Assembly: GCA_029237695.1 (NCBI GenBank) | Contig: CM055272.1 | Location: 18,774,042 to 18,838,041, forward strand | From: Conchocele bisecta | Lineage: Eukaryota > Mollusca > Bivalvia > Lucinida > Thyasiridae | Length of the DNA: 64,000 nucleotides | Direction of reading: 5' to 3' | Shown: positions 3,591-52,656 of the stretch, piece after piece | Layout: every line of letters begins with the position of its first letter | Position numbering within the stretch: position 1 is the first letter of the stretch | Notes under the pieces: model-generated | What the model was told of the DNA's origin: nothing | The model's database searches: none | What the model saw: only the letters and a program-made list of their open reading frames with translations | Made by a program: the position numbers and the translations under genes

Positions 3591-3604
3591 AACTATTCAA
3601 TTCA

Positions 3605-4195
3605 ATTTATGTGTAACTGGGTAATTTAAAAAAAAAGTATTTTTGTTTATTGGTGTTTAACGGCCTATCAACAGCTAATGTCATTTAAGGTCGGGCCAAC
3701 GGGTTCAATCCCGTATTGAAATATATTTAATTAGAATAACCTGACATGGTGCCAAGTCCAAACCATACCAAGGTCACCTGGCACCTTCCCCACAAAAGTA
3801 AAAGTAATATGACTATGAATAATAATATATATTACTCATATAAGGTGTATAAGGTGTAACCAGATTCAACTCTCACTGACAAGAATGGTTTTGTTTTAAA
3901 GTATGCACATGGTGCAGATCACGTGGATGCGGCTTCATACCTACACCAGTGACTACATGTGCATGTACCACCGCTACAGAACAGAGTACAGTAGGTGGAC
4001 AGAAGTAATTCCCCACCCATTGAAATCCCATAGACTTGCATGTATTTCTAATTGTGCTTGGAAGCATGTTACTTCAAATATAAAATTAAAGAGTTTAATG
4101 AAATAAAATGCATTGAGTAGAAAATAGATTTGTGCAGTATTGGATTATATGTGTATTCAATTCAAAGTAGTTTACAAGATACATGCAGTTAAATA
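3605..4195. repeat. SINE relic and flank, duplicated at 33.17-33.68 kb
   Basis: From 3640 the plus strand carries the complement of the SINE family, including GGGTTCAATCCCG, which resembles a pol III B box. From about 3690 to 4195 the sequence matches 33175-33682 closely, including GTAGGTGGACAGAAGTAATT near 3990 and 33466. With 40-620 it forms a duplicated block that the LINE has split here. The short ORFs across it have no recognisable product. Confidence 0.6.
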
Positions 4196-5880: not shown

Positions 5881-7470
5881 ATTATGCAACTTGTATATCT
5901 GACCCTTGCTGTTGTGTGTACACAGAGAGTGGTGCAGAGAGAGAGAGAGTTGTACAGCCAAAGTGGTCAGGGCGTTTTCCCACAGCAGGTTGTTTTAATA
6001 TTGCCGTTTTCCATGTCATTCTTAAATGGTGTGACCATCATCAGGGCCTACACTGGTTGCGAATTATTATTTTACATCACTTCTCAGTGTGACTCCGTGT
6101 GACTCGGATCATCCCGTGCGTCTGCGCAGTCTGGTCAGGGTCAACACTGTTGATAAATACTCATCATGCTCATTGTGCGAGTTATTCAGTCTATTATTTA
6201 GCCGGTGTTACTCTACCAGTGTGGATCAGATCCGTTTGTTCATTCACACAGTCTGATCTGGATCTACACTGTTTGCCAACATCCGCTTATGATTTAGGCC
6301 CGATGTAAGGATATCTACTATTGTGATGACGTAATATTGAGTTTAGGCGACTCGGACCAGATATGTCTGATAACTAGGTCTACGGCCTGTTTATGCCCAT
6401 GTCTGTCCACTTATCCCTTGTTTACCTTGGATATACCTGGACCACTCCTTTGTCTCATTTATCACAGACAAATTGCTGTTGAACCAATTGATGGAAATGG
6501 TGGTTTACAACCCATTAAGGAGAGATTACTCTTATAACAATATGACACATGGTCATTGTTTATAGATCGTTCTGCACCGGTAATTTTTCCATCAATTGGA
6601 CCTCATAATAAACCGGTCAAGGAGTGCTTCAGGAATTACCATTTTCCATAATGTTAAGCTGCTTCTGAGTAAGAGAAAACACTCGAGTTCTCAAGTAAGT
6701 TTATACTTGCTTCTTGGTGTACAGTGTGCTTTAGCTTCGTATTTAATGGTAGCATTGTGTGCTTATTGTTTAATGTTATTTGTGCGGCCAAATTGTTGCA
6801 GAAGCATATCGTCATAAATTGAGGTTGAATTTAGTGAACCGTCATTCGCTTTTGAATTTGTTATTATGACGGGGAAGTAAGTGCAACCTCTTTCTTAATT
6901 GTCTTGTTGCGTTCAGATTATAATTAGTAGACTACACAAAACTAGTGGGTCGACTTCAAACCATGATGTAAAGGTCCCCTTAGGTAGGCAGTTCCTTCTT
7001 TGTGTCAATATTAAAGTTGATTTCCCATCGATTAGGCACAAACTGTTCTTTACAGGAATTTAATAAGTTTTTCTTACTTTTCAGCCAGTAGTTTACATAA
7101 ATATAACGGTGAATTACACCACTCGGAAGCAGTAATTTATAACACTCTCGTGCTTACCATATTTGGAGAAATGACGTCAGAAACGTCGCAATGACGTGTT
7201 TCTTTCGGCCAATCAAATGCTGTTCTCAGACACACACACTGAATCGCGAGACAGTCGCCTTTAGAACGACCCGCCTCCATAAATTAATTCGTACACATAT
7301 TGGCCATATTTTACGCTTGATTCGCTTTGTTTTATAAAGTATCGTGTATGAAATGTAAGAAAACGTTTATTTAACCAGGTAAGCTGATTATCTTGAAATA
7401 TTGCACGAGTGATTGGGTCCTTACGCGAAACAAACGAGAGGGCGTAGCCAACCGAGTTTGTTTAGCGGTA
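5881..7470. repeat. Gene-free region with 'TCTGATCTGGATCTACACTG' repeats
   Basis: Variants of CAGTCTGATCTGGATCTACA occur near 6127 and 6248, with relatives near 10665, 10750, 55480 and 57440. I recall similar short interspersed motifs as abundant in clam genomes; that is memory, not a search. A GA run lies at 5936-5950. CRE-like TGACGTCA occurs near 7173. The small ORFs here show no domain. Confidence 0.4.
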
Positions 7471-7880
7471 GGACCCAATATACTTGTGCAACATGTCCAC
7501 CAGTTTTAAAAGGTTCGAGTGCCCGATACAGATACATATATGATCAGTTAGTAATCTTCAATTTACTGATAGTGACGACCGTTTGTATCAAGGTATTTTG
7601 ATATGCAAATGAAATTTATTATTTATATCAATAAAACGCGTCACCTGAATAAACAATTTTATCGATATATTATAAAGTATAATAATTACACATCAACAAA
7701 TAAATAAAGAGACTAAATATGTGTTTACGTTATCATTTTAAGGAAACACGGTTATCACCCCTGATCTCAAGACTGACAATTCACGCTACATAATACCAAT
7801 GTGCACATCCGATCATGGTAAACATATATGTTTATTTTGCCGAAAAAATGTCACATCTAAAAGATGTACGAATATTTTAC
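7470..7880 (+). mobile_element. Degraded copy of the 518-bp TIR element
   Basis: It shares with 8600-9000 the ordered blocks CCACCAGTTTTAAAA, GAGTGCCCG, TATGCAAATGA, GTCACCTGAATAA and the TTATCACCCCTGAT region. Neither terminal inverted repeat is intact. No ORF of note. Confidence 0.5.
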
Positions 7881-8528
7881 AACCTGGTAAGTGGGGAGTC
7901 CAGGTTTAGCAAAGACATGCATCTTATGTCACGGGATCAACAAATAATCCGGGCTGGTCTATAAGCAGGCTGTACAACGCAATTGAATATTTGTGTCTTA
8001 GTCTGGAGAAATGGGGCTTATGAGATTTTTGACAAATGCTGCTTCTGAACAGATAGCAGACTCATCTAGCCTGATAGCGATCTTTATCAGGTAACCTGCC
8101 CTGTATTGACCGAATACGTATGACGGATAAAATTGACCTGCTAAAAGCATCCAGGTTACAACGAAGTGAAAACTGGCCTTCCCTTGGTCGGATGACGTCA
8201 CGTGACGTTAACGAATGACGTCAGCGTAATGACGCAACGTAAACAAATCCGCGTTTTGTCCATAGATAACGACGTCACCTGTGGTCCTTTTCGAGCTAAA
8301 ACGTTACCTGATAAATATAATACCAGGCTCGGCACAGAAACGGTAGTAATTCATCGGCAAGCCTCGGAATTTCTACGCGTTTCCTAGCCTTGTCTGATAA
8401 ACATGATATCAAAATATACTATCCTGGTATGCTCTATATTGCTTTTTAGCCTCATTTATCCAGTCACAGTCACATGTGTGTTTGCAGCAGATGTAGTAGA
8501 TGGCTATACTAGGATTGCTGCGGTATTT

Positions 8529-9046
8529 TAAAGGTACATGCCCACTCAGTAGGCACAGAATGTACTTTATATGAATTAATTGAGTGTACAATTGTGTCAC
8601 TATTCCACCAGTTCTAAACATTACGAGTGCCCGCTATGCATAATATTATATAATCTGTTAGTAATAGTTATTTACGGTTAGTGACTCGCGGTGGTATCAG
8701 GCTATTTTCATATGCAAATGAGGCATGATATTATGATATTTTTTTATTATTTGTACTAATTTAATGCGTCACCTGAAAAAATAATATTTTCGACAGAGTA
8801 TAAAGTATGATCATTGCACATCAAGAAATAAATACAGAGAATAAATAGTATCGTCAGTTAACATTTTAAGGAAACACGTTTATCGCCCCTGTCAGTGTGG
8901 AAATTTACTTCTGATATAAAATGTATAATAATGCCAATTGATACGTGGGGTAAATGTGAATGAATGTTTATTTTGCCAGACAATGTCTCAGATGATGGCT
9001 CTGATATAAATAACAGTGTGTGCTAATGAGTGGGCATGTACCTTTA
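8529..9046 (+). mobile_element. Non-autonomous TIR element (518 bp)
   Basis: It begins TAAAGGTACATGCCCACTCA and ends with the exact reverse complement, TGAGTGGGCATGTACCTTTA. There is no coding capacity. An inverted-orientation relative lies at 17307-17816, and partial copies at 7470, 12395, 53228 and 58838. The flanks are TTAA/TTTAA-rich, so the target duplication cannot be fixed by eye and the superfamily is left open. Confidence 0.8.
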
Positions 9047-11463
9047 AGTGAGAATTTGGCTCGATAAAATACTTCCGGTTGTTCAATGCCATTTCAAAGA
9101 GGCGCCAGCGGGACTACAACGAGGCGACACCGTGGCTAGCACGTGGCGACAACGTGGCAACCGGCCGAAATTTGCAAATCGTGGGGTTCAGAAACGTGGC
9201 ACAACGGCGCAGTCAAAACGTAACACTATGACTGGGGCATAAGAACATACGCGATTTTTAATGCAACAGTGTAACATTTTCTGCAAATGACGTCGAAAGA
9301 ATACCGCATTTGCAATGAAAATTTCGTCAACTTTCGATGTAATTTACAGAAAACATCGTAAATTTTGTAAATATATTGCATGAAATATCGCACATGTTCC
9401 TAGTAGAAACAACATTGCTACCCTGCTCCATACCTCTCGCGAGGGTAGCAATTTAACCCCATCTCTTTAATGTAACAGATGGAAGAGTGATTTTTGCAAT
9501 CAGTTATCCGGCGTGTTTGATATGTTAGCGATATATAACTGTCAAAGCTATATCAATAAATTATTAATAAAGAACATACATGTACACATGCAGAACTTGG
9601 TTATTTTACCGTGTCAATGTGTTTATTTGATATTTACATGTATATCTTGTAAATTTGAAAGCTTACTTTCGTTATGTCGAATGTTCAACAACAATAAGAG
9701 AAAAGATGGCTTCCATGGGAAATGATTTCCCTATTCTATTATATTTGGCAATTCACTAGTTCTACATCAAAGATTATTTGTTTAAATGTTTAAAATACAG
9801 TTTACTAAATTTTAACAGGTTTGGGTATGGACATCGGTTGCTCACATTTTTAATTGTTAAATTGTAGCCGTAGATAACATATCGGAGGCGAATTAGTGTA
9901 GTTAATGTTCTTAGGTACACAATCACATGTCGTGTCTCATATATGATTTACCCTTATGAAACGGTGATTGTGTTTTACCAATTGTTATGTCGCTGCTATT
10001 GATTCTGAAAATAATACGAAAATTACTGTAAATGACTTAACATTTGACGAAAGATAGACAGAGATTATATATTTTGTAAATGATGCCGAAAAGGTGAAGA
10101 TACTAATCACATTTCGACACCATTTACAAAACAAGGCGATCGCCGGGGAGTGTCTCACCCACTAAACGAGGTGATCGCCACAAAGGTCAATGTTACCAGG
10201 TCAAGGTCACAATATCATCAAGTCCAACATTACTGATACGAAGATCACGGTCATGAAAGCAAAGGTCACATACATGAAACTGGGTGGATAGCCAGAAATA
10301 TTCAACATCTGGACGTACGTCCAAAATTGTTGACACCAAAGTCAAGGTCACCATAGTCACGGTCACCCGTGTGAGGAATCTATTGACGAAGTTTGGTAAT
10401 GATCCGACTGACTGATCAAGGGATATTACGTCCCGAATTGTTGACAACGACAACAAGGACGATGCTGGAATAGGGGATCGTAGCTAGTGATTTCCCATTG
10501 AAATTATTTATAGAAATCCGGTCCAAATTGTACATTTTATGGCCTTATTGCTTGTAAAGTCGGGCGAACGTCGCATGTTTTGTTATGAAAGGGAGCCATT
10601 ATCAGATTATAGTGTATTCGACTAGTGTTGATCCAGGTTATCCTACGTACCTGCACTGTCTGATCCGGAACTGCATTATTTGCCAGATTCATATGTTCAC
10701 ACTTATTAATCGTATTGCAGTCAGTGTATACTCAGATCAGACTGCATATATGTGCAGTCTGATCTGGATGTACATTGTTTGCAAAACTCAATTTTCGTCC
10801 TATTCAGTAAGAAACAAACGCTGAATTTCTATGAATATATTTGCATAGGGAGATCCATGTAACAAGCTATGATCCACCATTTTGACCGCCTAGTATAATT
10901 ATTGTCTCACTATCGTGGGTGATACAAAAATATAGATCTTCAATATCAAGTTCAGAACATTCATATTTGTGATAAGGCAGAAACTCATACGATGTCCTGT
11001 AGTCGATTTCACCCAGCCAAAATGGCTGTGATAATGTAATCAATTCTGTATAATAAAAAAATTATCATAAAATTGAAAATTTCTCCCTCAAAGTATACTT
11101 TGCTAGATAAGTATGCTTTGCAATGTTGGTGAAATGGGCTACTGGTATATGATATTAAACACATGTCCCACGAATGTGCATCATGTCTCGCATATAAATA
11201 TCGAGTGTACAAAATATGCAACCATTTGCATTTGCACTGCAAGAATGTCTCGGGAATGCGTCACGAAACTGGGCTTGGTATGTTTATTTGTCTTGAATAT
11301 TAGATGTAATCGGAAACAAGGGCATCGTTATGGATCGTATCGTGGATCGTGGATCGTATGCAAAACAAAGCACCGTCCATAGACACACCATGTGGCCAAC
11401 TATTATCAGAATCGGTGAAGTGGTTCATAAGTTATCGAAAAAATGAAGTGTTACTAACCTGCG
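9047..11463. other. Gene-free stretch with AGGTCA half-sites
   Basis: No gene is recognisable. Between about 10183 and 10370 there are repeated AGGTCA-type hexamers, including GGTCAAGGTCAC near 10200 and GTCAAGGTCACC near 10340. Short inverted segments occur near 10070-10130. The ORFs are short and featureless. Confidence 0.4.
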
Positions 11464-36600: not shown

Positions 36601-37544
36601 TCCTCGGGCTAAAGTATTATCAATTATTTTTAGAAATACTTTAAGCTGTATTAAACGTGTACATATATATCCGTAAATATCACATCTCCTAATTGCAAAA
36701 GCGACCATGTTGATGGTCATCTTGAAACTGACCGAGAGTCATGGTGATACTGTATATGGTTAAGTTTTTGGTGTATTAGTTTCAATAATGTTTAATTAGA
36801 AGAATGAATACAGCACATGTAGTGGTTAATGTAGAACTGATTACATCAGTGCCTGCATGAATTACATATCGTTACCATGCATTGTATTTATTTTCCAATC
36901 CAACTCACGACCAAGGGTTAATTTAGTTTAAACAATATTTATTCGACAGTATATGGTACAATACAAGGTATACAATGACAGGGATATGAAAACAAGCGTG
37001 AAGCTTATATGAATTCGTCTCCCACAAGGTGGATGTAAGACACGAATGTGGAACAAGATAGTTAAGTGCACATACAGGCGAATATACATGTTGAAATAGT
37101 CTAAGTGGAATGGCTTTGTCTTACAATGATGTACTTACAAAATGAGATTGACAGTGTTTAAACCTTAGATTTATGACATGATAATGCGTGTGGCTGTGCT
37201 TCAGAGATGGTCACCAAGCAAATGAGACAGGGACACGGGAATGGGAGGTTACATGGGGAATCGCCCATGCCTTTCCCAACCCTCACGATTTCCCTCTCAC
37301 ATTCCGTGGACGGGGAGTCGCCCCCGAGCGGCGTAAATGGATAGTGCCCGGAAGTTGTCGTCTATTGTTAGGATGATATGTATGGTATCTTTTGGTTGTC
37401 TATGTTGGAATGTTATTATGATGCTAGAATCTATTTGTTGCTTTTATGTAGTTTTGGACACTTATAAACATTTTTTTATTTTTAATTTAAACTATTGTCA
37501 CATGCGAAGATATATCCGGGATGCTTAATGTGGGAGAAAGCTAG
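33683..37544. other. Long gene-free AT-rich region
   Basis: No coding exon, RNA gene or complete mobile element is recognisable over 3.8 kb. There is an AT run near 34951-34970. The GC-rich patch near 37250-37330 holds a 62-codon ORF without a recognisable domain. Weakly similar blocks occur at 34060-34200 and 34440-34580. Confidence 0.4.
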
Positions 37545-40500
37545 GAGGTATTACGGGGTTTGGGGAAGTCACATTATACAGGAGGTAACTACGGGGTACT
37601 GGGACGTCACAGTATATAGGAACTGACTACGCGGTACGGGGACGTCACAGTATACAGGACGTAACTACGGCGTACCGGGACGACACAGTATACAGGAGGC
37701 AACTGCGGGGTACGTGGACGTCACAATATACGGGAGGTAACTACGGGGTACCAGGACGACACAGTATATAGGGCAGGTAACTACGGGTACGTGGACGACA
37801 CAGTATACAGGGGGTAACTACGGTGTACGGGGACGACACAATATACAGGGGTTAACTACGGGATACAGAGACGTCACATTATACAGAAGGTAACTACGGG
37901 GTACGTGGACGTCACTATATACAGGTGATAACTACGGTGTACGGGGACGACACAGTATACAGGAGGTACCTACGGGGTATGTGGACGTCACAGTATGCTG
38001 AAGGTATCTACGGGGTACCGGGACGTCACAGTATACAGGAGGTAACTACGGGGTACGTGGACGTCACTGTATACAGGAGGTAACTACTGGGTACGTGGAC
38101 GTCACTGTATACAGGAGGTAACTACGGTGTACGGGGACGACACAGTATATAGGGGAGGTAACTACGGAGTACGGGGAGGACACAGTATACAGGGGAGGTA
38201 ACTACGGGATACGGGGACGACACAGTATACATTGGAGCTAACTACGGGTACGGGGCGACACAATCTACAGGAGGTAACTCGGGGTACTGGGACGTCACAG
38301 AATGCAGGAGGTAACTACGGGGTACTGGGACGACACAGTATATAGGGGGTGGACGTCACAGTATACAGGAGGTAACTACGGGGTATTGGGACGTCACATA
38401 ATACAGGAGGGAACTACGGGGCACGGGACGTCACAGTATACAGGAGGTAATTACGGGGTACCGTGACGACACAATATATAGGAGGTAGCTACGGGGTACG
38501 TGGACGTCACAATATACAGTAGGTAACTACGGTGTACGGCGACGACATAGTATACAGGAAGTAACGACGGGGTATGTGGACGTCAAAGTATGCAGAAGGT
38601 AACTACGGAGTACGGGGACGTCACAGTATACAGGAGGTAACTAAGGGTACGGGACGTCACAGTATACAGGAGGTAACTACGGGGTACGGGACGACACAGT
38701 ATACAGGAAGTAACTACGGGGTATGTGGACGTCACGGTATACAGGAGGTAACTATGGGGCACATGGACGTCACTGTATACATGAGGTAACTACGGTGTAC
38801 GCGGACGATACAGTATATAGGAGGTATCTACGGGGTATGTGGACGTCACAGTATGAACATGGTAACTACGTGATATTGGGACGTCACAGTACATAGGGGC
38901 TAACTACGGATATGTGGACGTCACTGTATACAGGAGGTAACTACGGTGTACGGGGACGACACAGTATACAGGAGGTAACTACGGGGTATGTGGACAGTAT
39001 ACCGGAGGTGACTATGGGGTATGTGGACGTCACAGTATGCAGAAGGTGACTACGAGGTACTGGGACGTCACAGGATACAGGAGGTAACTACGGGGTACTG
39101 GGACGACACAGTATACAGAGTAACTACGGGATACGGGGACGACACAGTATATTGGAGGTAACTACGGTATACCGGGAAGACACAGTATACAGGGGAGGTA
39201 ACGACGGGGTACGGGGACAACACAGAATACAGGAGGTAACTACGGCGTACGGGGACGACACATTATACAGGGGGGGAGTAACTACTGGGTACTGGGACGT
39301 CACAGTATATAGGAGGTAACTACGGGGTATGGGGACGTCACAGTATACAGGAGGTAACTACGGGGTATTGAGACATCACAGTATACAGTGGGTAACTACG
39401 GGGTTTGGGGACGACACAGTATACATGAGGTAACTACGGGGTACGGGCCGACACAGTATACAAGAGGTAACTACGGTGTACGTGGACGTGACAATATACA
39501 GGAGGTAGCTACTGGGTACGTGGACATCACTGTATACAGGAGGTAACTACGGTATACGGGGACGACACAGTATACAGGAGGTACATATGGGGTACGTGGA
39601 CGTCACTGTATACAGGAGGTAACTACGGGGTACGGTGACGACACAGTATACAGCAGGTAACTACGGGGTATGTGGACGTCACAGTATGCAGAAGGTAACT
39701 ACGGGCTACCGGGACGTCACAAAATACAGGAGGTAACTACGGGGTACGGGACGTCACAGTATACAGGAGGTAACTACGGGGTATGTGGACATCACAGTAT
39801 ACAGGAGGTAACTACGGGGTATGTGGACATCACAGTATGCAGGAGGTAACTACTGGGTAAAGCAACGACACAGTATACGGGACAGGTTACTATGGGGGTA
39901 CGTGGACGACACTGTATACAGGGGGTAACTACGGGGTACGGCTATGACACAGTATACGGGACAGGTAACTACGTGGTACCGGGACGACACAGTATACAGG
40001 AGGTAACTACGGTGTAAGGGGACGACACAGTATACAGGGCAGATAACTACGGGGTACTGGGACGACACAGTATACCGGAGGTAACTACGCGGTACGGGTA
40101 CGACAGTATACAGGGGAGGTAATTATGGGGTATGGGTACGTCATAGTATGCAGGGGAGGTAACTACGGGGTATTCGGACGTCACAGTATACAAGAGGTAA
40201 CTGCAGGGTACGGGTACAACACAGTATACAGGGGAGGTAACTACGGGGTACTGGGACATCACAGTATACAGGATGTAACTACGGTGTACGGGGACGTCAC
40301 AGTATACAGGGGAGGTAACTACGGAGTACGGGGACGACACAGTATACTGGAGGTAAGAACGCGGTGCGGGGATCACACAGTATACAGGGGAGATAACTAC
40401 GGGGTGGGCGGACGACACAGCATACAGGGGCAACTACGGGGTACGGGGACGACACAGTATACCGGAGGTAACTACGGAGTACGGGGACGACACGGTATAC

Positions 40501-41195
40501 ACAAGGAAACTACCGGGTACGAGGACGACAAAGTATACAGGGGAGGTAACTACGGGGTACGGGGACGACACACTATACAGGGAAGATACCTACGGGGTAC
40601 GGGGACGTCACAGTATACAGGAGGTAACTACGGGGTACGGGGGCGTTACAATATACAGGGGATGTAACTACGGGGTATGGGGTCGACACAGTAGACAGGA
40701 GGTAACTACGGGGTACGGGGACGACACAGTATACAAGAGGTAACTACGAGGCACGAGGACGACACAGTATACAGTAGGTAACTACGAGGTACTGGGACGA
40801 CAGAGTATAGAGGAGGTAACTAATGGGTACGGGACGACACAGTATAATGGAGGTAACTACGGGGTACTTACGACACAGTATACTGGAGTTAACTACGGGG
40901 TACGGGACGACACTGTATACTGGAGGTAACTACGGGGTGCGAGAACGACACAGTATACAGGGGGTAACTACGGGGTGCGGCGAGGAAACAGTATACAGGA
41001 GGTAACTACGGGGTATTGGGACGACACATTATACAGGAGATAACTACGGGGTACGGTGTCGTCACATTCTACAGGAGGTAACTACGGGATATGGGGACGA
41101 CACAGTATACAGGAGGTAACTACGGGGTACGGGGACGTCACAGTATACATGGGAGGTAACTACGGGGTATGAGACGACACAGTATACAGAGGGTA
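37545..41195 (+). repeat. 38-bp minisatellite, left array (about 95 units)
   Basis: The unit is GGTAACTACGGGGTACGGGG followed by ACG(T/A)CACAGTATACAGGA. Units vary by substitutions and 1-3 bp indels. GACGTCAC and GACGACAC variants alternate irregularly, and TATAC is strongly kept. The ORFs across it are repeat translations (YGVRGRHSIQ-like), not genes. Confidence 0.95.
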
Positions 41196-41957
41196 AGTAA
41201 TAGTTAGATCATAAAAGTGCAAGTTTAAATCAAATGCACGTGCAATTGTATGATCTAACTGATTTGTATCATTTGCCAAATATGGAAAATTGGCACATGC
41301 GCAATTTTATGTGGGCGCGGCTCATTAATGACATGAGCCGTTTTTGATCGCTCGACCTGCCACGGAATTGACACGGTCCAATCATAATTCTAGTGCCAGG
41401 TGGGGGGAAGTCCCTTCACCTGCCATGTTTACGTCGTCATATACGCGTTGTCTGACTCATTTCCTGTTGACATCATTCGGTCATTTCACTTCATGGAACA
41501 AAGTTGTAGGCTGTGTTTGTTACATGTGAACTACAATGGAATCGGACTAAGACATTTTATCGCAAATAGCGATAGGGTTGGAAAATGAATACATTACAGA
41601 AATTTTGAAATTAATGCTATTAAAAGTACATTGGTTTAATTGAATAAAGTTTCTCAAATATTCAATGCTGTCAATGCTGCCAGGTGGGCCCGAATTCAGA
41701 GGAGGGTTCAAATGAGTGGTCATAACCTGTACCTTCATTGAGAGGAACAGCCGTGCAATAATTGCAGTGCGTATAAGTGCCCATACGTTTCAGATATACG
41801 CACGGCAATTATTGCACGGCATCTCATTAAATTAGGCTCCACCCCTTTTGTTACGCCACATTCTAAGCTCCACCCCTTTAGATGCACAGAACAACAACTT
41901 GGTATTGGAAATTTATAGCAGGTGCGTGTATAATGCTGAAGGTCTTTGGGCTATGAT
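41196..41957. other. Non-satellite insert with hairpins
   Basis: It interrupts the minisatellite. GTTAGATCATA (41203) pairs with TATGATCTAAC (41249). GCCGTGCAATAATTGC (41750-41765) is the exact reverse complement of 41805-41820. GGTTCAAATGAGTGGTCA near 41705 also occurs in the palindrome at 52657-52731. Probably one or more MITEs; there is no gene. Confidence 0.5.
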
Positions 41958-41995
41958 ACAACTACGGGTTACGGGGACGACACAGCATATTGGAG
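41958..41995 (+). repeat. Orphan minisatellite unit
   Basis: One unit (AACTACGGGTTACGGGGACG and the rest) between the 41.2-kb insert and the palindromic element. It shows that both blocks sit inside the same original array. Confidence 0.85.
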
Positions 41996-41999
41996 GAGT

Positions 42000-42100
42000 A
42001 GTATATAAGAGTCACAATGATACCACCACCCTCTGAAAGGCACCGGCTAACGCGCGGTGTCCCCACCGCATGGTGGTATCATTTGTGACTCTTATATACT
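42000..42100. repeat. T-shaped hairpin terminus of the palindromic element
   Basis: AGTATATAAGAGTCACA (42000) through TGATACCACCA pairs with TGGTGGTATCA through TTGTGACTCTTATATACT (42071-42100). A 42-base GC-rich loop can itself form a smaller stem (GGCACCG with CGGTGTCC). The right end of the element (48434-48480) repeats half of this structure and stops inside the loop. The shape recalls parvovirus-type terminal hairpins; that comparison is structural only. Confidence 0.65.
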
Positions 42101-44805
42101 GCTTGGATTTCCCCCCACTGTTCGGCGGGTATGTATGAGAAGAATGGACCATATTTTCATCAACCGCGAGACCATATATTTATGACATGAGAAGATACAC
42201 CCTATTAGAGATAAGAATCCCTATGTTATACTCAGTATATATAATAACAATCTGTCATACATTTATTACGAATAAAATAACAACTGACACCCTATTAAAG
42301 ATAAGAAATCCATAAGTTATACTCAGTATATTACAGCAATCTGTCATAAATATAGAAGGCGCATATTTCGTCGGGGCTAATGTGATTTCGGCTATTTTTT
42401 GCTACTTTTTCGGAATTCTACAAAATCGCGCAGTCCAATTGAACACAAGAAAATTAGAGGAATACACAACGCTATTTCTCAAAAATGACAGTGCAAGCTA
42501 CTTTTCAAAGCATGGGAATTCGATCGGCGAAAGCCGTTTCCACCCACATTCTCCTAGAGAACGCGCACGGTAGCAATTTGCTTCCAGACATCTCTGGAGT
42601 TGACTACATACTCGGAAACAAAGGCCAAACCCACTTGCAACCCCTCGAGGGTCTCCCTCCATTTGTGGACGACGTCTACATCTTCGGGTACCTTCGTCGG
42701 GAAGATTGTGTAGAACGCGGGGGTCGGCTCTTTGTACATCCGGGGAAAAAGGCTCTGCAACGGAGGTGCTTCGGGAGGTCTCCATGGCGATTCGGAAAAG
42801 CATGGGTAGAACTAGAATCCAGACAAACATCGCGCAAACAATAGCCGCCGGGGAGAAAGCTGGTGGTACGATTCGAGAAACGATTCGTCGGATCGAGCGA
42901 GACACACGGTTCGAGGCGAGGAATGCGTGGATGGAACTCTACCCTTCCGCCAAAATTGGAGGGTACTTCGTTGCGAAAGCGGCAGTCTCCGACATTCCAA
43001 TGGACGAGCTGCAAGAGAACTTGCCAGCACTCGCTCGCCACTTGCAAACTTTTGGGTACGGAATCTACTCCATCGACTACACACAAGACTTCTCCGGGGT
43101 TCTAGATCGCGATGCCCTAGTACGACATCTCTGCGAAAACGAGGGGTTTCGAGAGCAAGGTACCTTCGAAGCAGCAATGCGGGAGCACGACTGTCCAACC
43201 ATTCTCGACAACACTTCCAGCGTGGGACGAAATGTCTGCACGTGGATTCGCACAACAGACGACAACACGGTCCGCACAAAATTCTACAAAAAGTTGTCTC
43301 CAATTTCGAAGCCGGGGAGATCCGAGAACCAGTTGGTGGACACCTAGCAGAGTACGCGGACTGTCCATTCGAACATATAGGGAAAACATTCCGGAATCCG
43401 GATGTCCAAATTCGAGGTTGCACTCGCATCGAGATTTCCCTCTACGCGTGCAGAGAAAAACAACTCTCTACATCCACAGCGGAAGAACTTCTTGCCGAAG
43501 CTCTAGATCTAGTCTCGCCTAGAGACGGCCCTGGACTCTTCGTGGTACAAACACCGGCGGCGCAGTGGGAGAACCTAGCGAGTGTTCTCGACAGATGTCT
43601 CGTTCTTGCCGACCGTCCAGCTGGCACAATCTTTGTAGCGTGGTACGCACACACGGAGACCGGTCGAATTTCGGGGATTCGAGTACGACCAACTCCCGCG
43701 AGAGTGGAGCAAGATGCTTCCTGTGAGAAAGCGGCTCTGTGGGCAATTGCGGAGTTTGGATTTCGCTCGTGTCCAATCTTCCGAGTGGACATTCTAGCTT
43801 CCGAAGAAGAGAATGGTGTAGAACTTGGACCACTACGCTGCTACACGAAAGGGGAAGACACACACACAGTTCTTTCCGCGAGCAAACGACCAACGCAAAC
43901 ACATCCAGACGCCCAAGACCCCTCCATTCTCCTACCAGAAACAAGAGTAGTCTCTTGGGTCTGGCGAAAGAAGAAATGCAATCCGATCGGAGGAGAGACA
44001 TCGCAGTACCAGATTCGGGAGGTTCCAGAAATTGCGACTGGGAGGGAGATCTCCACACTTTCCACAAAAAATCGTGCAAACAGACTGCTAGAAATCCGAG
44101 AAGCGGAGGAGGTGGAGCTCTGGAAAAGAAGCGCTTGGGAGAGAATCGAGAAAGACAAGCTAGAGAATGGAGAGAGAAGAGAGAAAGAACTCCAAAGACT
44201 AGTCGTACTGGAGGAAGAACGCGAGAAGTACGAAAAACGGCCCGAGGCAACACTCCAACACGTAGGAAGCATGTTGCGCGGAAACACTACAACAATCTCC
44301 CACATGGACACAATCGGGAATTTCCTCGTTCTAGGGTACAGAAAAACACCAAACGTGGGTACATCGCGGCGAGTCGTTCTGCGGCACGAGGATGGGGGAT
44401 GGACGAAAACCGCCTGGGCAACCAAAGGTGTAGAGAAATTGCTGGACGCGTGCGAGAGTTCTTTCAATTTTGTTTCCGACAAGTACGGCAACACTGCGTA
44501 CTGGATCCCCGAACTACCAGATGGGGAACAACAAGGAGAGCGCCTGTGTGGGCCCAAGATCGAAATCCAAGAGGCAAGAGCCTTCTCGAACAAGGAGGGG
44601 GTGGAGATCTCTTGGCATCCAATTCGGATTCTTTCCACACCACATCCGGAGAGGCTGGAGCAGATCCAGAAGATGGTGGATGTCTTGGAGGAGGGCCAAA
44701 CAACCGTACGACTGGCGAGGACCACACCCCCCAAACCCACTCTCTACGAGAAAGCGCTAGATCTCCAGCCCGGGGAGTACATCGTTCGCAGGTACGCGCA
44801 GACTG
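42054..44805 (+). repeat. Left inverted arm
   Basis: Reverse complement of 45943-48480. Homology ends sharply after CGCAGGTACGCGCAGACTG at 44805. It contains a 217-bp insertion with two tandem copies of an ACACCCTATTA(A/G)AGATAAG segment. Confidence 0.85.
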
Positions 44806-44888
44806 TCCGAGCACCGCGAACAAGTATTTCGACCATTTCGAACGATTTGGGAATTCCATGTTGGACAAATGTCCCCCTCTCTAGATAG
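42485..44888 (+). pseudogene. Large ORF1, left-arm copy (broken, 3' end replaced)
   Basis: The start is the ATG at 42485. Reading is broken by a 1-bp loss in the T run near 42731 and another near 43288, relative to the right arm. It is then open in one frame to 44888. The last ~28 codons differ from the right arm because the arm ends at 44805. The second half contains a long charged, probably coiled-coil stretch (about 44090-44250) and a W/G-rich globular part after it. The N-terminal motifs are described at the right-arm copy. The left copy looks dead. Function is unknown; replication or integration is a guess from context. Confidence 0.65.
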
Positions 44889-44906
44889 AAAAGGTATTTT
44901 GTAAAT

Positions 44907-45713
44907 ATGCCAAAAACCTATTTGTCTCCGGAAAATATTAGAGAAATTATTTCCGCCCGTGGAAAGTCGACAGCCGAAGAAACAAAAAAGAAATACGGGA
45001 TCGGCAGTGCCAGACTTCGAAAGTTGTGGGATGGTGTCGATGCGGAACGTAGTACAAAACCCGAAGAACAAGAAACCCCCGAAGAACAAGAAAAACCTAC
45101 TCCCGTAGTACACAGGGTGACCGCGCCTGGTTTTGCGGGCCCCACCGAGTTCCCCACGGATCTAGTAGAAGATACACGAAACGCCAGCTCGTTCGAAGAA
45201 TCGACACACCTGTCCGACATGGAGAGACGTTTGGAGAACCGGTTGGACATGTTGGAACGCAGACTGTTGGACGCAATTTTCGACGATGCCCGCTCGGCCG
45301 ATTCCGAGTGTCCGAAGAAAGACGAGCTGGAGGTGCACGACATCTGGGGAACCGTAGAGAATGCGAAGTGGTGGCTGGGGGTCTCTGTGGTGGCGTACGC
45401 GGTCTGCAGACCACTGTTCCCATTCGTGGCTCTAGAGGCCCGTAGACTCTGGAAGAACAAAACAGACACCGACGCCCAGTTCGTGCATTCCACAAAACAG
45501 TCCGGTACACCGAAGGAAAAAAAACAACTAGCGACTCCGTACACCAGCACTCTGGTAGTAGCGACCCGTTCTACATGGAGTAGCCATTTTGAAAAAAAAG
45601 AAATTCTTTGTCGATTTTTGTCGCTGCTCGTTTTGGGTGGCGCGATTGTGTTCGAGAAAAACTGTGTGTGCATTTATTTGTTGCACTTGCGAGAAAAGAA
45701 GTGTGGATTCTAG
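44907..45713 (+). CDS. ORF2, uncharacterised 268-residue protein in the unique centre
   Basis: Start ATG at 44907 and TAG at 45711-45713; the frame is intact. Residues 5-43 (YLSPENIREIISARGKST... YGIGSARLRKLWDG) look like a small helix-turn-helix domain. Residues 50-70 are E/P/K-rich. Residues 103-127 are heptad-like (MERRLENRLDMLERRLLDAI), suggesting a coiled coil. Residues 154-176 form one good membrane segment, and a second hydrophobic stretch lies near 236-262. The gene converges on ORF1 of the right arm, and the two stop codons overlap. No family is recognised. A DNA-binding or structural role is possible but unproven. Confidence 0.6.
   Translation: MPKTYLSPENIREIISARGKSTAEETKKKYGIGSARLRKLWDGVDAERSTKPEEQETPEEQEKPTPVVHRVTAPGFAGPTEFPTDLVEDTRNASSFEESTHLSDMERRLENRLDMLERRLLDAIFDDARSADSECPKKDELEVHDIWGTVENAKWWLGVSVVAYAVCRPLFPFVALEARRLWKNKTDTDAQFVHSTKQSGTPKEKKQLATPYTSTLVVATRSTWSSHFEKKEILCRFLSLLVLGGAIVFEKNCVCIYLLHLREKKCGF
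45673..45678 (-). promoter_or_regulatory. AATAAA poly(A) signal candidate for ORF1
   Basis: AATAAA on the minus strand, about 32 bases past the ORF1 stop (45710) and inside the 3' part of ORF2. The position suits mRNA 3' processing; it is a short motif and may be chance. Confidence 0.35.
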
Positions 45714-48266
45714 AGGGCCAAATTGGCCAGCCGATCGGGTTTGTTCGTGGGAGTAGTTCGTTTTCCCCCCAATCTGCAGAGAATTGGATTGTGTGTGTTC
45801 TGGAGGACTGTCTCCCCGCCGAGATTTGCAACCTCCCTCTCCAGAAAGAACCCGTACGTTGGAATCTCGATGTCCGTCTTTTGCTCCCCATTTTCGTCGG
45901 TCTCTAGAAGAAATAGAATTGTTCGTGTCGTGCCTCTGTAGCCAGTCTGCGCGTACCTGCGAACGATGTACTCCCCGGGCTGGAGATCTAGCCCTTTCTC
46001 GCAGAGAGTGGGTTTGGGGGGTGTGGTCCTCGCCAGTCGTACGGTTGTTTGGCTCTCCTCCAAGACATCCACCATATTTTGGATCTATTCCAGCCTGTCC
46101 GGATGTGGTGTGGAAATAATCCGAATTGGATGCCAAGAGATCTCCACCCCCTCCTTGTTCGAGAAGGCTCTTGCCTCTTGGATTTCGATCTTGGGCCCAC
46201 ACAGGCGCTCTCCTTGTTGTTCCCCATCTGGTAGTTCGGGGATCCAGTACGTAGTGTTGCCGTACTTGTCGGAAACAAAATTGAAAGAACTCTCGCACAC
46301 GTCCAGCAATTTCTCTACACCTTTGGTTGCCCAGGCGGTTTTCGTCCATCCCCCATCCTCGTGCCGCAGAACGACTCGCCGCGATGTACCCACGTTTGGT
46401 GTTTTTCTGTACCCTAGAACGAGGAAATTCCCGATTGTGTCCATGTGGGAGATTGTTGTAGTGTTTCCGCGCAACATGCTTCCTACGTGTTGGAGTGTTG
46501 CCTCGGACCGTTTTTCGTACTTCTCGCGTTCTTCCTCCAGTACGACTAGTCTTTGGAGTTCTTTCTCTCTTCTCTCTCCATTCTCTAGCTTGTCTTTCTC
46601 GATTCTCTCCAAGCGCTTCTTTTCCAGAGCTCCACCTCCTCCGCTTCTCGGATTTCTAGCAGTCTGTTTGCACGATTTTTTGTGGAAAGTGTGGAGATCT
46701 CCCTCCCAGTCGCAATTTCTGGAACCTCCCGAATCTGGTACTGCGATGTCTCTCCTCCGATCGGATTGCATTTCTTCTTTCGCCAGACCCAAGAGACTAC
46801 TCTTGTTTCTGGTAGGAGTATGGAGGGGTCTTGGGCGTCTGGATGTGTTTGCGTTGGTCGTTTGCTCGCGGAAAGAACTGTGTGTGTGTGTCTTCCCCTT
46901 TCGTGTAGCAGCGTAGTGGTCCAAGTTCTACACCATTCTCTTCTTCGGAAGCTAGAATGTCCACTCGGAAGATTGGACACGAGCGAAATCCAAACTCCGC
47001 AATTGCCCACAGAGCCGCTTTCTCCCAGGAAGCATCTTGCTCCACTCTCGCGGGAGTTGGTCGTACTCGAATCCCCGAAATTCGACCGGTCTCCGTGTGT
47101 GCGTACCACGCTACAAAGATTGTGCCAGCTGGACGGTCGGCAAGAACGAGACATCTGTCGAGAGCACTCGCTAGGTTCTCCCACTGCGCCGCCGGTGTTT
47201 TTACCACGAAGAGTCCAGGGCCGTCTCTAGGCGAGACTAGATCTAGAGCTTCGGCAAGAAGTTCTTCCGCTGTGGATGTAGAGAGTAGTTTTGCTCTGCA
47301 CGCGTAGAGGGAAATCTCGATGCGAGTGCAGCCTCGAATTTGGACATCCGGATTCCGGAATGTTTTCCCTAGATGTTCGAATGGACAGTCCGCGTACTCT
47401 GCTAGGTGTCCACCAACTGGTTCTCGGATCTCCCCGGCTTCGAAATTGGAGACAACTTTGTTGTAGAATTGTGTGCGGACCGTGTAGTCGTCTGTTGTGC
47501 GAATCCACGTGCAGACATTTCGTCCCACGCTGGAAGTGTTGTCGAGAATGGTTGGACAGTCGTGCTCCCGCATTGCTGCTTCGAAGGTACCTTGCTCTCG
47601 AAACCCCTCGTTTTCGCAGAGATGTCGTACTAGGGCATCGCGATCTAGAACCCCGGAGAAGTCTTGTGTGTAGTCGATGGAGTAGATTCCGTACCCAAAA
47701 GTTTGCAAGTGGCGAGCGAGTGCTGGCAAGTTCTCTTGCAGCTCGTCCATTGGAATGTCGGAGACTGCCGCTTTCGCAACGAAGTACCCTCCAATTTTGG
47801 CGAAAGGGTAGAGTTCCATCCACGCATTCCTCGCCTCGAACCGTGTGTCTCGCTCGATCCGACGAATCGTTTCTCGAATCGTACCACCAGCTTTCTCCCC
47901 GGCGGAAATTGTTTGCGCGATGTTTGTCTGGATTCTAGTTCTACCCATGCTTTTCCGAATCGCCATGGAGACCTCCCGAAGCACCTCCGTTGCAGAGCCT
48001 TTTTCCCCGGATGTACAAAAGAGCCGACCCCCGCGTTCTACACAATCTTCCCGACGAAGGTACCCGAAGATGTAGACGTCGTCCACAAATGGAGGGAGAC
48101 CCTCGAGGGGTTGCAAGTGGATTTGGCCTTTGTTTCCGAGTATGTAGTCCACTCCAGAGATGTCTGGAAGCAAGTTGCTACCGTGCGCGTTCTCTAGGGA
48201 AATGTGGGTGGAAACGGCTTTCGCCGATCGAATTCCCATGCTTTGAAAAGTAGCTTGCACTGTCAT
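45710..48266 (-). pseudogene. Large ORF1, right-arm copy (about 850 codons, three lesions)
   Basis: The start is the ATG at 48266. The first ~460-489 codons are open. A CA run (46878-46891) is 2 bp longer than in the left arm and shifts the frame. A 1-bp loss near 46608 shifts it again, and TAG at 46085-46087 is a nonsense codon. The frame then runs to the stop at 45710-45712, past the arm boundary, so only this copy holds the natural 3' end. Visible motifs are IDYTQDFSG (residues 197-205), TVRTQFYNK (262-270) and GCTRIEISLY (312-321). This order loosely recalls replication initiators of the Rep_trans type, where a Tyr lies in a YxK strand and an R-x-E strand follows. A coiled coil is in the second half. 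Rep function is speculative. Confidence 0.65.
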
Positions 48267-48480
48267 TTTTGAGAAATAGCGTTGTGTATTCCTCTAGTTT
48301 TCTTGTGTTCAATTGCACTGCGCGATTTTGTAGAATTCCGAAAAAGTAGCAAAAAATAGCCGAAATCACATTAGCCCTGACGAAATATGCGCCTTCTATA
48401 CATACCCGCCGAACAGTGGGGGGAAATCCAAGTAGTATATAAGAGTCACAAATGATACCACCATGCGGTGGGGGGCACCG
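45943..48480 (-). repeat. Right inverted arm
   Basis: Reverse complement of the left arm. It ends at GGGGGGCACCG (48480), inside the hairpin loop sequence, and is followed at once by a minisatellite unit. Confidence 0.85.
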
Positions 48481-49608
48481 TAACTACGGGGTACGGGGAC
48501 GTCACATTATACAGGAGAGGTTACTACGTGGTACGGGGACGACACATTATACAGGGGGTAACTACGGGGTACGGGGACGACACAATATACAGGGGAGGTA
48601 ACTACGGGGTACATGGACGCCACAGTACACAGGAGATAACTACGGGGTACTGGTCGACACAGTATATAAGTGAGGTATGTACGGGTTACGTGGACGTCAC
48701 AGTATACATGATGTAACTACGGGGTACTGGGACGACACCGTATACAGGAGGTAACTACGGAGTACGGAGACGACACAGTATACAGGGGAGGTAACTATGG
48801 GGTATGGGGACGTCATATTATACAGGGAATGTAACTACGGGGTACGGGGACGTCACAGTATACAAGGGGTAACTGTAGGGTACGGGGACGACACAGTATA
48901 CAGGGGAGGTAACTACGGGGTACTGGGACATCATAGTATACATGAGGTAACTACGGTGTACGGGGACGTCACAATATACGGGAGTTAACTACGGTGTACG
49001 GGGACGTCACAGTATACATGAGGTAACTACGGCGTACGGGGATTTCATAGCGGGGACGTCACAGTATACATGAGGTAACTACGGTGTACGGGGACGTCAC
49101 AGTATATAGGAGGCTTACTACGTTGTACGGGAACGTCACAGTATACATGAGGTAAATACGGTGTACGGTGACGTCACAGTATACAGTGGAGGTAACTACG
49201 GCTTACGGGGACGACACAGTATACATGAGGTAACTACTGGGTACGCGGACGACACAGTATACAGGAGGTAAAGACGTGGTATGAGGACGACACATTATAC
49301 AGGGGGTAACTACGGGGTACCGGGACGACACAGTATACACGGGAGGTAACTACGGGGGACGGCGACGACACAGTATACAGGGGAGGTAACTACGGGGTAC
49401 AGGGTCGTCACAGCATACAGGCGGTAACTACGGGGTACGGGGACCACACGGTATACAGGGGAGGTAACTACGGGGTACGGGGTCGTCACAGTATACAGGA
49501 GGTAAATACGGGGTACGGGGTAGTCACAGTATACGGGAGGTAACTATGGGGTACGGGGACGTCACGGTATTATACAGGGGGTAACTACGGGGTACGGGGA
49601 AGTCACAG
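48481..49608 (+). repeat. 38-bp minisatellite, right array (about 29 units)
   Basis: Same unit and orientation as 37545-41195, so this continues the array on the other side of the inserted element. It ends after GGGGAAGTCACAGTG near 49610. Confidence 0.95.
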
Positions 49609-50342
49609 TGATTTTAGAACATACACGCCGTGTACGTTATACATACGCTCACCCAAATCAACCAGTGACCAAGGCAAACATTTCGTATCTGATGCACATA
49701 GCGTAGAGGTTAGAGTTATTTGTTTTGTTTAATTAATCAACGTTGAGGGTTGTTGGTTCGAAACCAACACTGTGCTATCTTTTTTTATTGAATTGTGTCC
49801 CTCACTTCACACTCCCAGTTAGATATCTGCCGTCGTTAATACGTTTATTTTATTATCATTATTTAATGTGACTTACAGAAACATATTTTTGTGTTGGTTC
49901 AAAAACTGATACAGACGTAATGTGTGGGGTGTATTTATAGTCAAACATTTCCAGGGGCCGGGTATTAAGAGGCCAAGAACCCCGAGGATGTGTATCTTTC
50001 ACGTCCCCAAGAGTCCCCACCCCGTACTGTCGTGTCTATGAAATACCTACTGGCGACAATTTTGGAATGTGTTGGAATTTTGGAATTTTGGAACATCCCG
50101 ATTTTGTTTCACGTTGTTTGATAGTGAAATATGTATTCAGTTAATGAATTGATAACACCGTAAGCCCTGATCTGACTGCGTGATGTGCATCCTGATATGT
50201 GACGCTGTAAACCCAGTGCCCACGTCACAAGGACCCTTTTGTCAAACTATATCTAAGACAAAATGAATCTACTATCGAAACATTTTACGTTTACAAATAT
50301 GGCATTTGTGGTTTTCAATCGCCTGTTTCACCAACTAAATAG
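49609..50342. other. Gene-free stretch with a tRNA-like segment
   Basis: Apart from 49696-49785, no gene or repeat is recognisable. Confidence 0.4.
49696..49785 (+). repeat. tRNA-derived segment (SINE head or tRNA relic)
   Basis: TAGCGTAGAGGTTAGAG resembles a pol III A box. TTGGTTCGAAACCAA is a perfect T-arm with the B box GGTTCGAAACC. GATGCACA at the start can pair partly with TGTGCTATC at the end. The anticodon arm region is AT-rich and not convincing, so this is more likely a SINE head or relic than a working tRNA. Confidence 0.45.
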
Positions 50343-50640
50343 AGAATAGTAGGTTAGTGCCGTGAATGGGAAAAATATATGGCAAGGCTTAGGAAACGGG
50401 ATGGCGAGGCTCTGCCGAGCACATCCCGTTTCCGTGCCGCGCCAGATATTTTTCCCATTCACGGCACTAACCTACTATTCTATTTATCCCGTCAATACCT
50501 ACAAATGCCTTTAAATTCAATAAAATAACCCCAATAACGCACATATTCATACGCAGTGATTATGTCGTATTGACAGGATATCTTAAACGTTTCACAGCAA
50601 CGTGTTTCTCGGCACTACCGCACTGTGTTGACGGGATAAT
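50343..50640 (+). mobile_element. Hairpin MITE, copy 1
   Basis: AGAATAGTAGGTTAGTGCCG (50343) pairs with CGGCACTAACCTACTATTCT (about 50463-50482). The flank to 50640 ends GTTGACGGGATAA. Copy 2 (52344-52632) is the reverse complement. Confidence 0.7.
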
Positions 50641-51225
50641 TTACATTATCTCCCAAGCTATCGGGAGCAATCATTTTCAAGCTCTCAATTGCTCTAGATA
50701 AGGTACCAGTCCACCAAAATTTTAGACTTTTTTAGCAATTCTTGGCCGAGCGAACACTTCAGCAAGTTTTTTTCTCAGATATCCTCTTCATATATTCACT
50801 GAGGCTGTTTGCTGTATACACCTGTTATATTATATGTCAAGAAACGTCAGGTTGGCATACAGCTAAGAGCATTTATAGTGTGTAAAAGTTAGCATGTGGT
50901 GGTCAATTTCTACACTTATTCCGTCATGGCCACTGGACTAAAGGCGCCAAAAAGCCACGTGACATGCAGAATTTGTACTAACAAATAATGTGTGAAACAA
51001 TTCTACATGTATACCTGCCCACACTGATCATAGTCTGTACTGGTACCGAGTGTTTTGTTTTCGAGCTACACACCTCTGTTTCAGCAAACAGCAAACACAC
51101 ATTTCGAGCGGAAGATCCGTACAAGTGGAATCTGAATATGCTCACTGAATGGACCAGATCACAGTTTAGCACATACTTTTACAAATACTTGCTTTTGTCA
51201 GCTGAAAATAGCATAGGACGCTGAG

Positions 51226-51616
51226 TTTGTTTGTTTGTTTGTTTGTGTATTAGTGTTTAACGGCCTATCAACAGCTAAGGTCATGTAAGGCCTGGCAAGC
51301 GGGTTCGATCCCATTTTAACCTGCTGCATTGGTGGAAAATCCCAAAATCAAAACGGAATATTTACATCAAGAACAAATATATTCAGCCCTGAAATTAGAA
51401 TAACCAGCCATACCACACCAAAGTCACTTGACCCCTTCCCTAAAATAGGATTACGAATATCGTAATACTCACATAAGGGGTATAACCAGATTCAACTGTC
51501 ACATACAAAATGCCAAAGACGTATGTGAGGTCCAAACCAGGTCTCCAGTCGGGATTCCGGTAAGGATGAACCCCGATCGTTAAATTACCCATCGCGTGCT
51601 CCCACCTGCCACCCAC
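51226..51616 (-). mobile_element. SINE with 12-bp target duplication
   Basis: A perfect TAGGACGCTGAG repeat at 51214-51225 and 51617-51628 bounds the copy. On the minus strand it starts GTGGGTGGCAGGTGGGAGCA and ends in a CAAA tail (GTTT repeats at 51226-51244). Near 51302 the plus strand reads GGGTTCGATCCC. This is the cleanest copy of the family in the window. Confidence 0.8.
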
Positions 51617-51628
51617 TAGGACGCTGAG

Positions 51629-52343
51629 TATTTAATTTTAAGTCACATTCAATCACCACAGACAGGCAGTTTTGGAATATTCAGTAAAAAGCACATAGGA
51701 AAACTACGAAACTAATCCTTTTTCAAGTGGACTGGTACCTAAGGCGTCGATTCGGCTAGCTAAAATGGCTGCAAACCGCTACGTCCCTAAAACGCTATAA
51801 TATACATAGTCTGCTGACCCCGTGATGTAACTTGGTACCCTTGCCAATTTATCGGAAACCAACAGTATAATTGCCTATTTAAATGGCATCTGAATATAGT
51901 TCTCTTGTGGGTTTTCGATGTAATGAGAAAAAAATTGCTGGTTGCTAAAATATGTCCATCGGACGTGAGGTGACCAGTGTTGAGACATTCAATTATGCGA
52001 CCTGAACTATGGCTCTGACTGGAGAAATGAGACTGATGGCATGTGCTGGCTGATCACGGACTTCACTCAGAGCTCCAGGTAAGCTGCGTATCGACGCATT
52101 TTACGCACTTATTTTATCCTAACTTTGCACTTATGAACATTTTAGTCGTACGAAGTTTAGTGAAACGGACCCCAGATCGCCATCGACCAGACATACTACT
52201 AGTAGTAGTTGCTCAAAACTATGTAAATTGCCCAAATCCAGCGAAATCCACCCAAGTCTACCCAAAATCCACCAAAATACCCATATGACACCACCATACT
52301 GACCATCTGTTCAAACACCTGCGATACTATACACTAAAACACC
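51629..52343. other. Gene-free spacer
   Basis: A short repeat (CAAATCCAGCGAAATCCACC and CCAAAATCCACCAAAATACC) lies near 52234-52285. Nothing else is recognised. Confidence 0.4.
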
Positions 52344-52632
52344 CATTTATCCTGTCAACACAGTGCGTACGTGCCGTGAAACATTTTTGATATCCTGTCA
52401 ATACGACCTAATCACTGCGTATGAATATGTGCGGTGGCTGGGATTATTTTTTTGCATTTTAAAGCCATTAAGGTGTTGACGGGATAAATAGAATAGTAGG
52501 TTAGTACCGTGAATGGGAAAAATATCTGGCGCGGCTCGGAAACGGGATGTGCTCGGCAGAGCCTCGCCCATCCCGTTTCCTAAGCCTTGCCGGATATTTT
52601 TTCCCATTCACGGCACTAACCTACTATTCTCT
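52344..52632 (-). mobile_element. Hairpin MITE, copy 2 (inverted)
   Basis: Reverse complement of 50343-50640, with AGAATAGTAGGTTAGTACCG at 52490 and CGGCACTAACCTACTATTCT near 52611. A further half copy lies at about 52755-52806. Confidence 0.7.
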
Positions 52633-52656
52633 ATCTATTTTCCTTATTTCTGAACC

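Follow-up and report, generated by a model that had tools for sequence, protein, structure and literature searches.

What is a 6.5-kb palindrome with coding arms doing inside a minisatellite of a bivalve genome? The question is raised by a stretch of 64,000 nucleotides from Conchocele bisecta (GCA_029237695.1, contig CM055272.1, positions 18,774,042 to 18,838,041), hereafter the window, in which the palindrome lies at 41,996 to 48,480. We consider it fairly probable that this locus holds a decayed mobile satellite, palindromic in build and dependent on virus-like elements of the Maverick/Polinton type as its helpers.

Palindrome structure and its relatives in the genome

The preliminary description, made from the letters of the window, reported two inverted arms of about 2.5 kb with few differences, and these were confirmed at 98.5% identity over 2,459 aligned columns (Table 1). 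Inverted-repeat detection gave the arms in five pieces, with a sixth, outer pair at 42061-42136/48398-48473; 42137-42350 is without counterpart on the right side. The spacing between the arms is 1,137 nt and holds an open reading frame (ORF), ORF2, which overlaps tail-to-tail with a piece of the ORF1 end on the other strand, as the overlapping convergent genes of that description implied. Each arm carries ORF1 and is coding as described, but the frame is interrupted in both. The minisatellite said to abut both ends adjoins the element directly on the right; on the left, it is in contact with no more than about one degenerate unit (to 41996), beyond which lie ~750 nt of other DNA (by eye). An Rfam scan of the window showed nothing at gathering scores.

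The genome searched was 1.89 Gb, and the window is on its contig C8. With the ORF1 piece as query, a DNA search resulted in at least 46 matches (40 of 191 candidates scored) and a protein search in at least 88 (87 of 1,422 candidates scored); matches at 51–58% identity include open frames of up to 874 aa. Twenty loci, 10 kb each, served as the family sample. The ORF1 unit was inverted, at least partly, in 13 of them (L021, L023, L025, L027, L028, L029, L033-L036, L038-L040) and not inverted in seven (L022, L024, L026, L030-L032, L037). The fullest relatives were L038 and L027. In L038 a self-inverted stretch (1618-9152, 96.9%) lies between ends at 948 and 9252, and the order is end, ORF1, ORF2, centre, ORF2, ORF1, end. 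Matches to ORF2 in both orientations were observed in L038, L027, and L026.

The palindrome centre is a unique loop of ~60 nt flanked by the inverted arms, with a single occurrence each in 10 of the 20 loci, across subfamilies. GCAATCYGAGCA-like repeats were also present in 10 of the 20 and lay next to the centre wherever one was present; L028 had the loop without such repeats and L031 the repeats without the loop. This conserved centre was not found in the window element, and the only GCAATCYGAGCA-like match of the window, at 3026, is distant from it. The window locus derives from a larger palindrome by deletion, and is not one element with a unique centre as had been described: the true centre is gone, and ORF2, single in the window, is present in both arms of L038 and L027.

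Among the ORF1 protein matches listed, neighbours up to 10 kb apart formed 13 +/- pairs, no -/+ pair, and two ++ pairs; one ++ pair is a single gene split in two matches. Both partners were 51–59% like the window copy in six of the 13 +/- pairs. A dimer formed at the window site only is ruled out by the one centre common to half of the sampled loci.

Several sampled loci showed further features. L021 has outer arms with additional frames (425-2574 and 7194-8957), 77% alike, around a 95.7% inner ORF1 palindrome; these frames gave no convincing Pfam match. An extra frame of ~165 aa lies between end and ORF1 in both arms of L028 (1070-1564 and 6930-7433) and by eye resembles one near L030:8728-9141. 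In L024 (1548-2434) a piece matching the window ORF2 region occurs in three tandem copies ~350 nt apart. L037, on C12, has adjoining same-orientation ORF1 stretches of different subfamilies (906-1490 and 2662-4936; 52% and 80% like the query). Outside the duplication-bounded element of L040 an inverted repeat of 98.2% was detected (1-711 and 7645-8359), and this locus is perhaps an insertion near the middle of another palindrome.

Element ends and the large Maverick-like family

Element ends start with AGTAG. Twelve small loci had both ends, and exact 5-bp target duplications were found in 11 of them (Table 1); the twelfth, L029, showed three ends, with outer flanks one base apart (TTTCA/TGTCA). 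The remaining eight of the 20 loci had one end within the 10-kb stretch. In the window copy GGAGG flanks the left terminus, and the right terminus is cut. That the palindrome arose in assembly or cloning, or is an inverted duplication that happened once, is hardly credible. Long palindromes are error-prone and the evidence comes from the assembly only, and an assembly palindrome had been named as an alternative from the start; for the family, this is ruled out by the number of independent copies, whose 5-bp duplications match and which have a common centre.

The hairpin end reported for the window holds on the left, where the DNA fold gave a z of −9.35 (0 of 200 shuffles equally stable), but not on the right, where half of the hairpin is kept and no comparable fold was observed (z −1.22). 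An alignment of 10 hairpin ends had 96.9% of its cells paired, and the extra base was on the inner strand in all 10. Nine of 39 hairpin pairs were changed on both sides, against a shuffle mean of 5.9 (9 of 500 shuffles reach 9) and 0–2 in slid controls; the independent compensatory events are few because the aligned ends come from related copies. Some satellites (L022, L023) were without a terminal hairpin. The hairpin was rejected as a general ORF1 origin, since some ORF1 carriers lack it and a Maverick-like element has it.

These ends also bound large elements. A 27-nt terminus pattern (up to 2 mismatches) gave 2,096 + 2,130 matches, and its reversed controls 0 + 0. Among the first 100 places listed there were 33 neighbouring +/- pairs less than 25 kb apart, compared with two of -/+ order. 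Thirty-one of these 33 were 13.6–20.5 kb apart (median 17,608; 19 at 17–18 kb), and the other two 5.8 kb (L040) and 6.0 kb. The large pairs checked had an exact 5-bp duplication in eight of nine cases and a single mismatch in one. The 6.0-kb pair (G000:C1:33015225-33021226) has the same ends and an exact duplication, CAATT, and is not among the ORF1 matches listed; it would be another satellite or a deleted large element.

One 17.7-kb element, L041, was read over its first 8 kb. One frame matched PF03175 (DNA polymerase B) with E 2.8e-5 and 23.6 bits, under the cut-off of 25.8, and a piece of rve integrase was seen with E 0.014 and 16.1 bits, under the cut-off of 32.6. L041 is, on these modest scores, Maverick-like. 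The palindromes match L041 over its first ~280 nt (92.7% for the window end), and tblastn detected no relatives of ORF1 or ORF2 under E 0.1 in the 8 kb read. The link to linear-DNA-virus-like elements proposed in the preliminary description is thus borne out by the ends, which are those of the ~17.6-kb Maverick-like family.

Pairs 14–18 kb apart were also found for a second end class, the one seen in L030; of 16 neighbouring combinations from 100 listed places, 15 had matching flanks and the sixteenth a better partner. At least two end classes seen beside ORF1 also terminate large elements; L028, L031, L033, and L035 carry further classes. The second end class also bounds smaller elements, with 5-bp flanks that match, at G000:C5:74975237-74975438 (~0.2 kb, the size of a miniature inverted-repeat transposable element, MITE) and at C2:3924295 and C1:216805211 (4.6 and 5.5 kb, respectively). 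In L030 itself (455-2728 and 5453-8765), Maverick-like DNA is neighbour to an ORF1 unit: sequence 66–87% like L041 5693-8000 lies ~2.7 kb from that unit. Its left end was found neither in the 1.5 kb searched nor among the listed matches with the expected flank. L030 may be a recombinant or two neighbouring relics.

Precise ends and 5-bp duplications are also what an autonomous fold-back transposon with very long inverted repeats would show, and ORF1, the largest conserved gene, would then be its transposase. We regard this as quite improbable. The ends are common to the far more numerous ~17.6-kb family, with an rve match in one copy; the predicted ORF1 structure gave matches to TBP and Rep_trans, though the missing RNase H-like matches say little; and no transposase family was matched.

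Evolution of the arms

The arm tree contained 24 arms, with 16 shorter stretches left out, and both arms of seven elements. Partner arms were sisters in L021, L025, and L040 (starred support) and in L038 (94/90), and their order was not resolved for the window, L023, and L039. No partner arm of the seven elements was placed in another subfamily. Between the window copy and the subfamily L037-L040, the synonymous divergence (dS) was 0.96–1.03 and the ratio of nonsynonymous to synonymous divergence (dN/dS) 0.10–0.12, with differences at codon positions 1, 2, and 3 of ~11, 10, and 42%, respectively. The two window arms differ from each other at a dS of 0.013 with a dN/dS of ~1, as in dead copies. 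Arms are alike within most elements seen and subfamilies are apart to dS ~1. The low dN/dS between subfamilies, together with the matched arms, indicates that ORF1 was long under strong constraint and that the arms tracked each other. Two observations weigh against this history: in one inverted pair on C1, the similarity of the arms to the query is 77% and 60%, and the L021 outer arms, which bear other frames, reach 77% only between themselves.

The palindromes might alternatively be copy-back derivatives, similar to defective-interfering genomes, which recur by fold-back of a replicating end and in which ORF1 and ORF2 are ordinary Maverick genes. Ends and subterminal repeats common to Mavericks and palindromes are consistent with this, as are the several end classes that carry ORF1 and the Maverick-like DNA of L030, whose end class is shared with 14–18-kb pairs. 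We judge it unlikely nevertheless. The same centre loop occurs in subfamilies at dS ~1, and the inversion was therefore inherited and not re-made. The 8 kb read in L041 contained no relatives of ORF1 or ORF2, and L030, with its left end not found, is possibly two neighbouring relics.

ORF1 and ORF2 proteins

ORF1 has ~800–850 aa, which include a long helix and a C-terminal part. The preliminary description did not recognise the proteins, and searches of Pfam, NCBIfam, PHROG, and PDB sequences brought no convincing match; in Pfam, the window ORF1 and ORF2 pieces had no match and 74 relatives none that was convincing. Structure prediction, which had been suggested for ORF1, gave a TBP/Rep_trans-like fold, and structure searches with the prediction matched TBP and Rep_trans. 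For the window protein, Rep_trans 4cij ranked first (16% identity), 4cwc and 4cwe showed 14% and 10%, respectively, and the listed TBPs 6–11%.

The residues K266, Y268, and K270 of a K-x-Y-x-K motif were present in 78, 79, and 79 of 80 ORF1 rows, respectively, with Q266 in the window copy. The acidic residues D198, D202, and E317 were found in 75/76, 74/76, and 74/78 rows. The candidate metal ligands D62/D63, D198 (or D202), and E317 are conserved and in the order of Rep_trans. Y268 would be the equivalent of the Rep_trans catalytic Tyr, and ORF1 is probably a Rep_trans-like nicking protein with a predicted TBP-like fold. YxxK (motif III) is absent from ORF1, and PF02486 matched 0 of 74 ORF1 family members at E ≤0.1. 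Phage B5 Rep, tried as a Rep_trans yardstick, turned out to be Rep_1.

Instead of a nuclease, ORF1 could be a TBP-like protein that binds DNA or has a regulatory role, and the element would still be a satellite. This is rather unlikely, as the near-invariant Y268, K270, D198, D202, and E317 are unexpected in a pure binder and 4cij stands above the TBPs for the window protein.

Pfam recognised no protein-primed DNA polymerase B or RVE integrase in the palindrome and gave no match to an HUH nuclease with SF3 helicase (NS1), the HUH motif not being sought by itself. No DDE transposase was recognised in the family searches. RNase H-like folds were not listed in the structure searches, an absence that says little. 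An ordinary parvovirus or DDE element is improbable, as there was no family match in these searches. Short-pattern, non-exhaustive scans of IMG/VR and GTDB gave 0 relatives, and the best match among BFVD structures (E 1.4e-3) was to an unnamed protein. One ORF1 relative, P0010, comes from a 2-kb contig assigned to a Candidatus Thiodiazotropha bin; our guess is host DNA in the bin. The protein database contains no homologue of ORF2, whereas 16 of the 20 loci of the same genome have related frames. By eye ORF2 has a helix-turn-helix-like start and one membrane-spanning-like stretch.

Proposed replication of the satellite

As a satellite, the palindrome would be inserted by the Maverick integrase, and its AGT-repeat ends would serve the Maverick protein-primed polymerase as start sites; in protein-primed systems, sliding back at terminal triplets is known. 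Because each strand is self-complementary, the displaced strand would snap back on itself and give a duplex that again has a normal end. As copying passes round the centre, one arm would be re-templated from the other, so that the arms would stay identical. ORF1 may nick near the central short repeats and the loop, its likely site. Missing from the window copy are its centre, one of the two ORF2 genes, and half of the right end.

We propose more tentatively, and at somewhat less than an even chance, that this is an animal hyperparasite: a long-standing self-complementary genome that draws its ends, polymerase, and integrase from several Maverick lineages and carries the first eukaryotic TBP-fold (Rep_trans-like) rolling-circle initiator, with relatives in sea anemones and a sea slug.

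Feature coordinates

Table 1. Features of the window element (window positions) and target duplications of related loci.
Feature	Position or sequence	Strand	Remark
38-bp minisatellite array, left	37543..41196		Tandem Repeats Finder
GGAGG flank at left terminus	41992..41996	+	
Left terminus AGTAGTATATAAGAG..., 107-nt imperfect palindrome (hairpin), asymmetric bulge	41997..42103	+	Fold, compensatory changes, Maverick-like end
Subterminal repeats in common with large element	42104..42350	+	42163-42328 at 84%
Left arm, broken ORF1	42351..44805	+	Open pieces 42485-42844, 42706-43347, 42927-44888; the last in ORF1 frame from ~43.3 kb (by eye)
Remaining centre	44806..45942	no strand	
ORF2, 268 aa	44907..45713	+	
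Open piece, C-terminal end of ORF1 (right-arm copy)	45710..46075	-	
Right arm, second ORF1, also broken	45943..48400	-	
ORF1 N-terminal piece, 489 aa (last ~20 aa low confidence)	46797..48266	-	Predicted TBP/Rep_trans-like fold, residues 54-352
Half terminal hairpin, element cut here	48431..48480	-	
38-bp minisatellite array, right	48480..49609		Tandem Repeats Finder
Target duplications	L022 GAAGG, L023 CGAAT, L025 GCAGG, L034 GGCCC		
Target duplications	L038 TGACT, L039 GGTAC, L040 GCCAG		
Target duplications	L028 CTACC, L031 GTTTG, L033 TATGC, L035 CGTGT		

A second, short inverted repeat lies at 50333-52640 of the window (50333-50599 with 52372-52640, 90%), near self-complementary stretches; as far as seen, it has no relation to the element.

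Comparison with known systems

Terminal sequence, hairpin, subterminal repeats, and 5-bp duplication are those of the local 17.6-kb family and connect the satellite with Maverick/Polinton elements of the adintovirus type. AG...CT termini are a Polinton trait that the palindromes have too; the target duplication of Polintons is 6 bp. The satellite differs in its size of 4–8 kb in near-full-length copies whose ends were found, in being palindromic, and in having no recognised polymerase, integrase, or capsid gene, whereas Polintons are outlined as 15–20 kb with pPolB, RVE integrase, ATPase, and protease in PMC4028283.

Adeno-associated virus (AAV), a dependovirus, resembles the satellite in being small, in depending on a helper, and in having terminal hairpins and a Rep of its own, but it is not palindromic throughout and does not use the ends of its helper. 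The AAV helper belongs to the adenovirus-Polinton group, and AAV has an HUH nuclease with SF3 helicase and a capsid gene. Flip/flop terminal hairpins as in parvoviruses were not seen, the extra base being on one and the same strand in every aligned end. Virophages and transpovirons are satellites of large DNA viruses with non-palindromic genomes and different genes and hosts. Fold-back transposons and copy-back defective genomes share the long inverted arms and the snap-back logic; here, by contrast, the same genes are present under constraint in each arm, and old subfamilies have inherited a single common centre. In searches of the open-licence literature, no non-autonomous or gene-keeping satellite Maverick and no palindromic coding transposon was recognised as an element of this kind. 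Long palindromes are regarded as short-lived, a view that a heritable palindromic gene order contradicts, and such a palindrome is a natural test of fold-back replication.

The TBP-like sheet predicted for ORF1 is also a feature of the Rep_trans initiators RepSTK1 and RepDE and of the archaeal Rep-Arvir, according to PMC4797284 and PMC13107129. The K-x-Y-x-K of ORF1 compares with R189-x-Y191-x-K193 of RepDE, with acidic residues in the same order (PMC4797284, PMC13107129). ORF1 differs from Rep_trans in its greater length with the long helix and C-terminal part, in its occurrence in animal genomes, and in lacking a PF02486 match and YxxK. This type of initiator is described as bacterial and, since 2026, archaeal (PMC13107129); if ORF1 is a nicking enzyme, the same type would occur in animals too.
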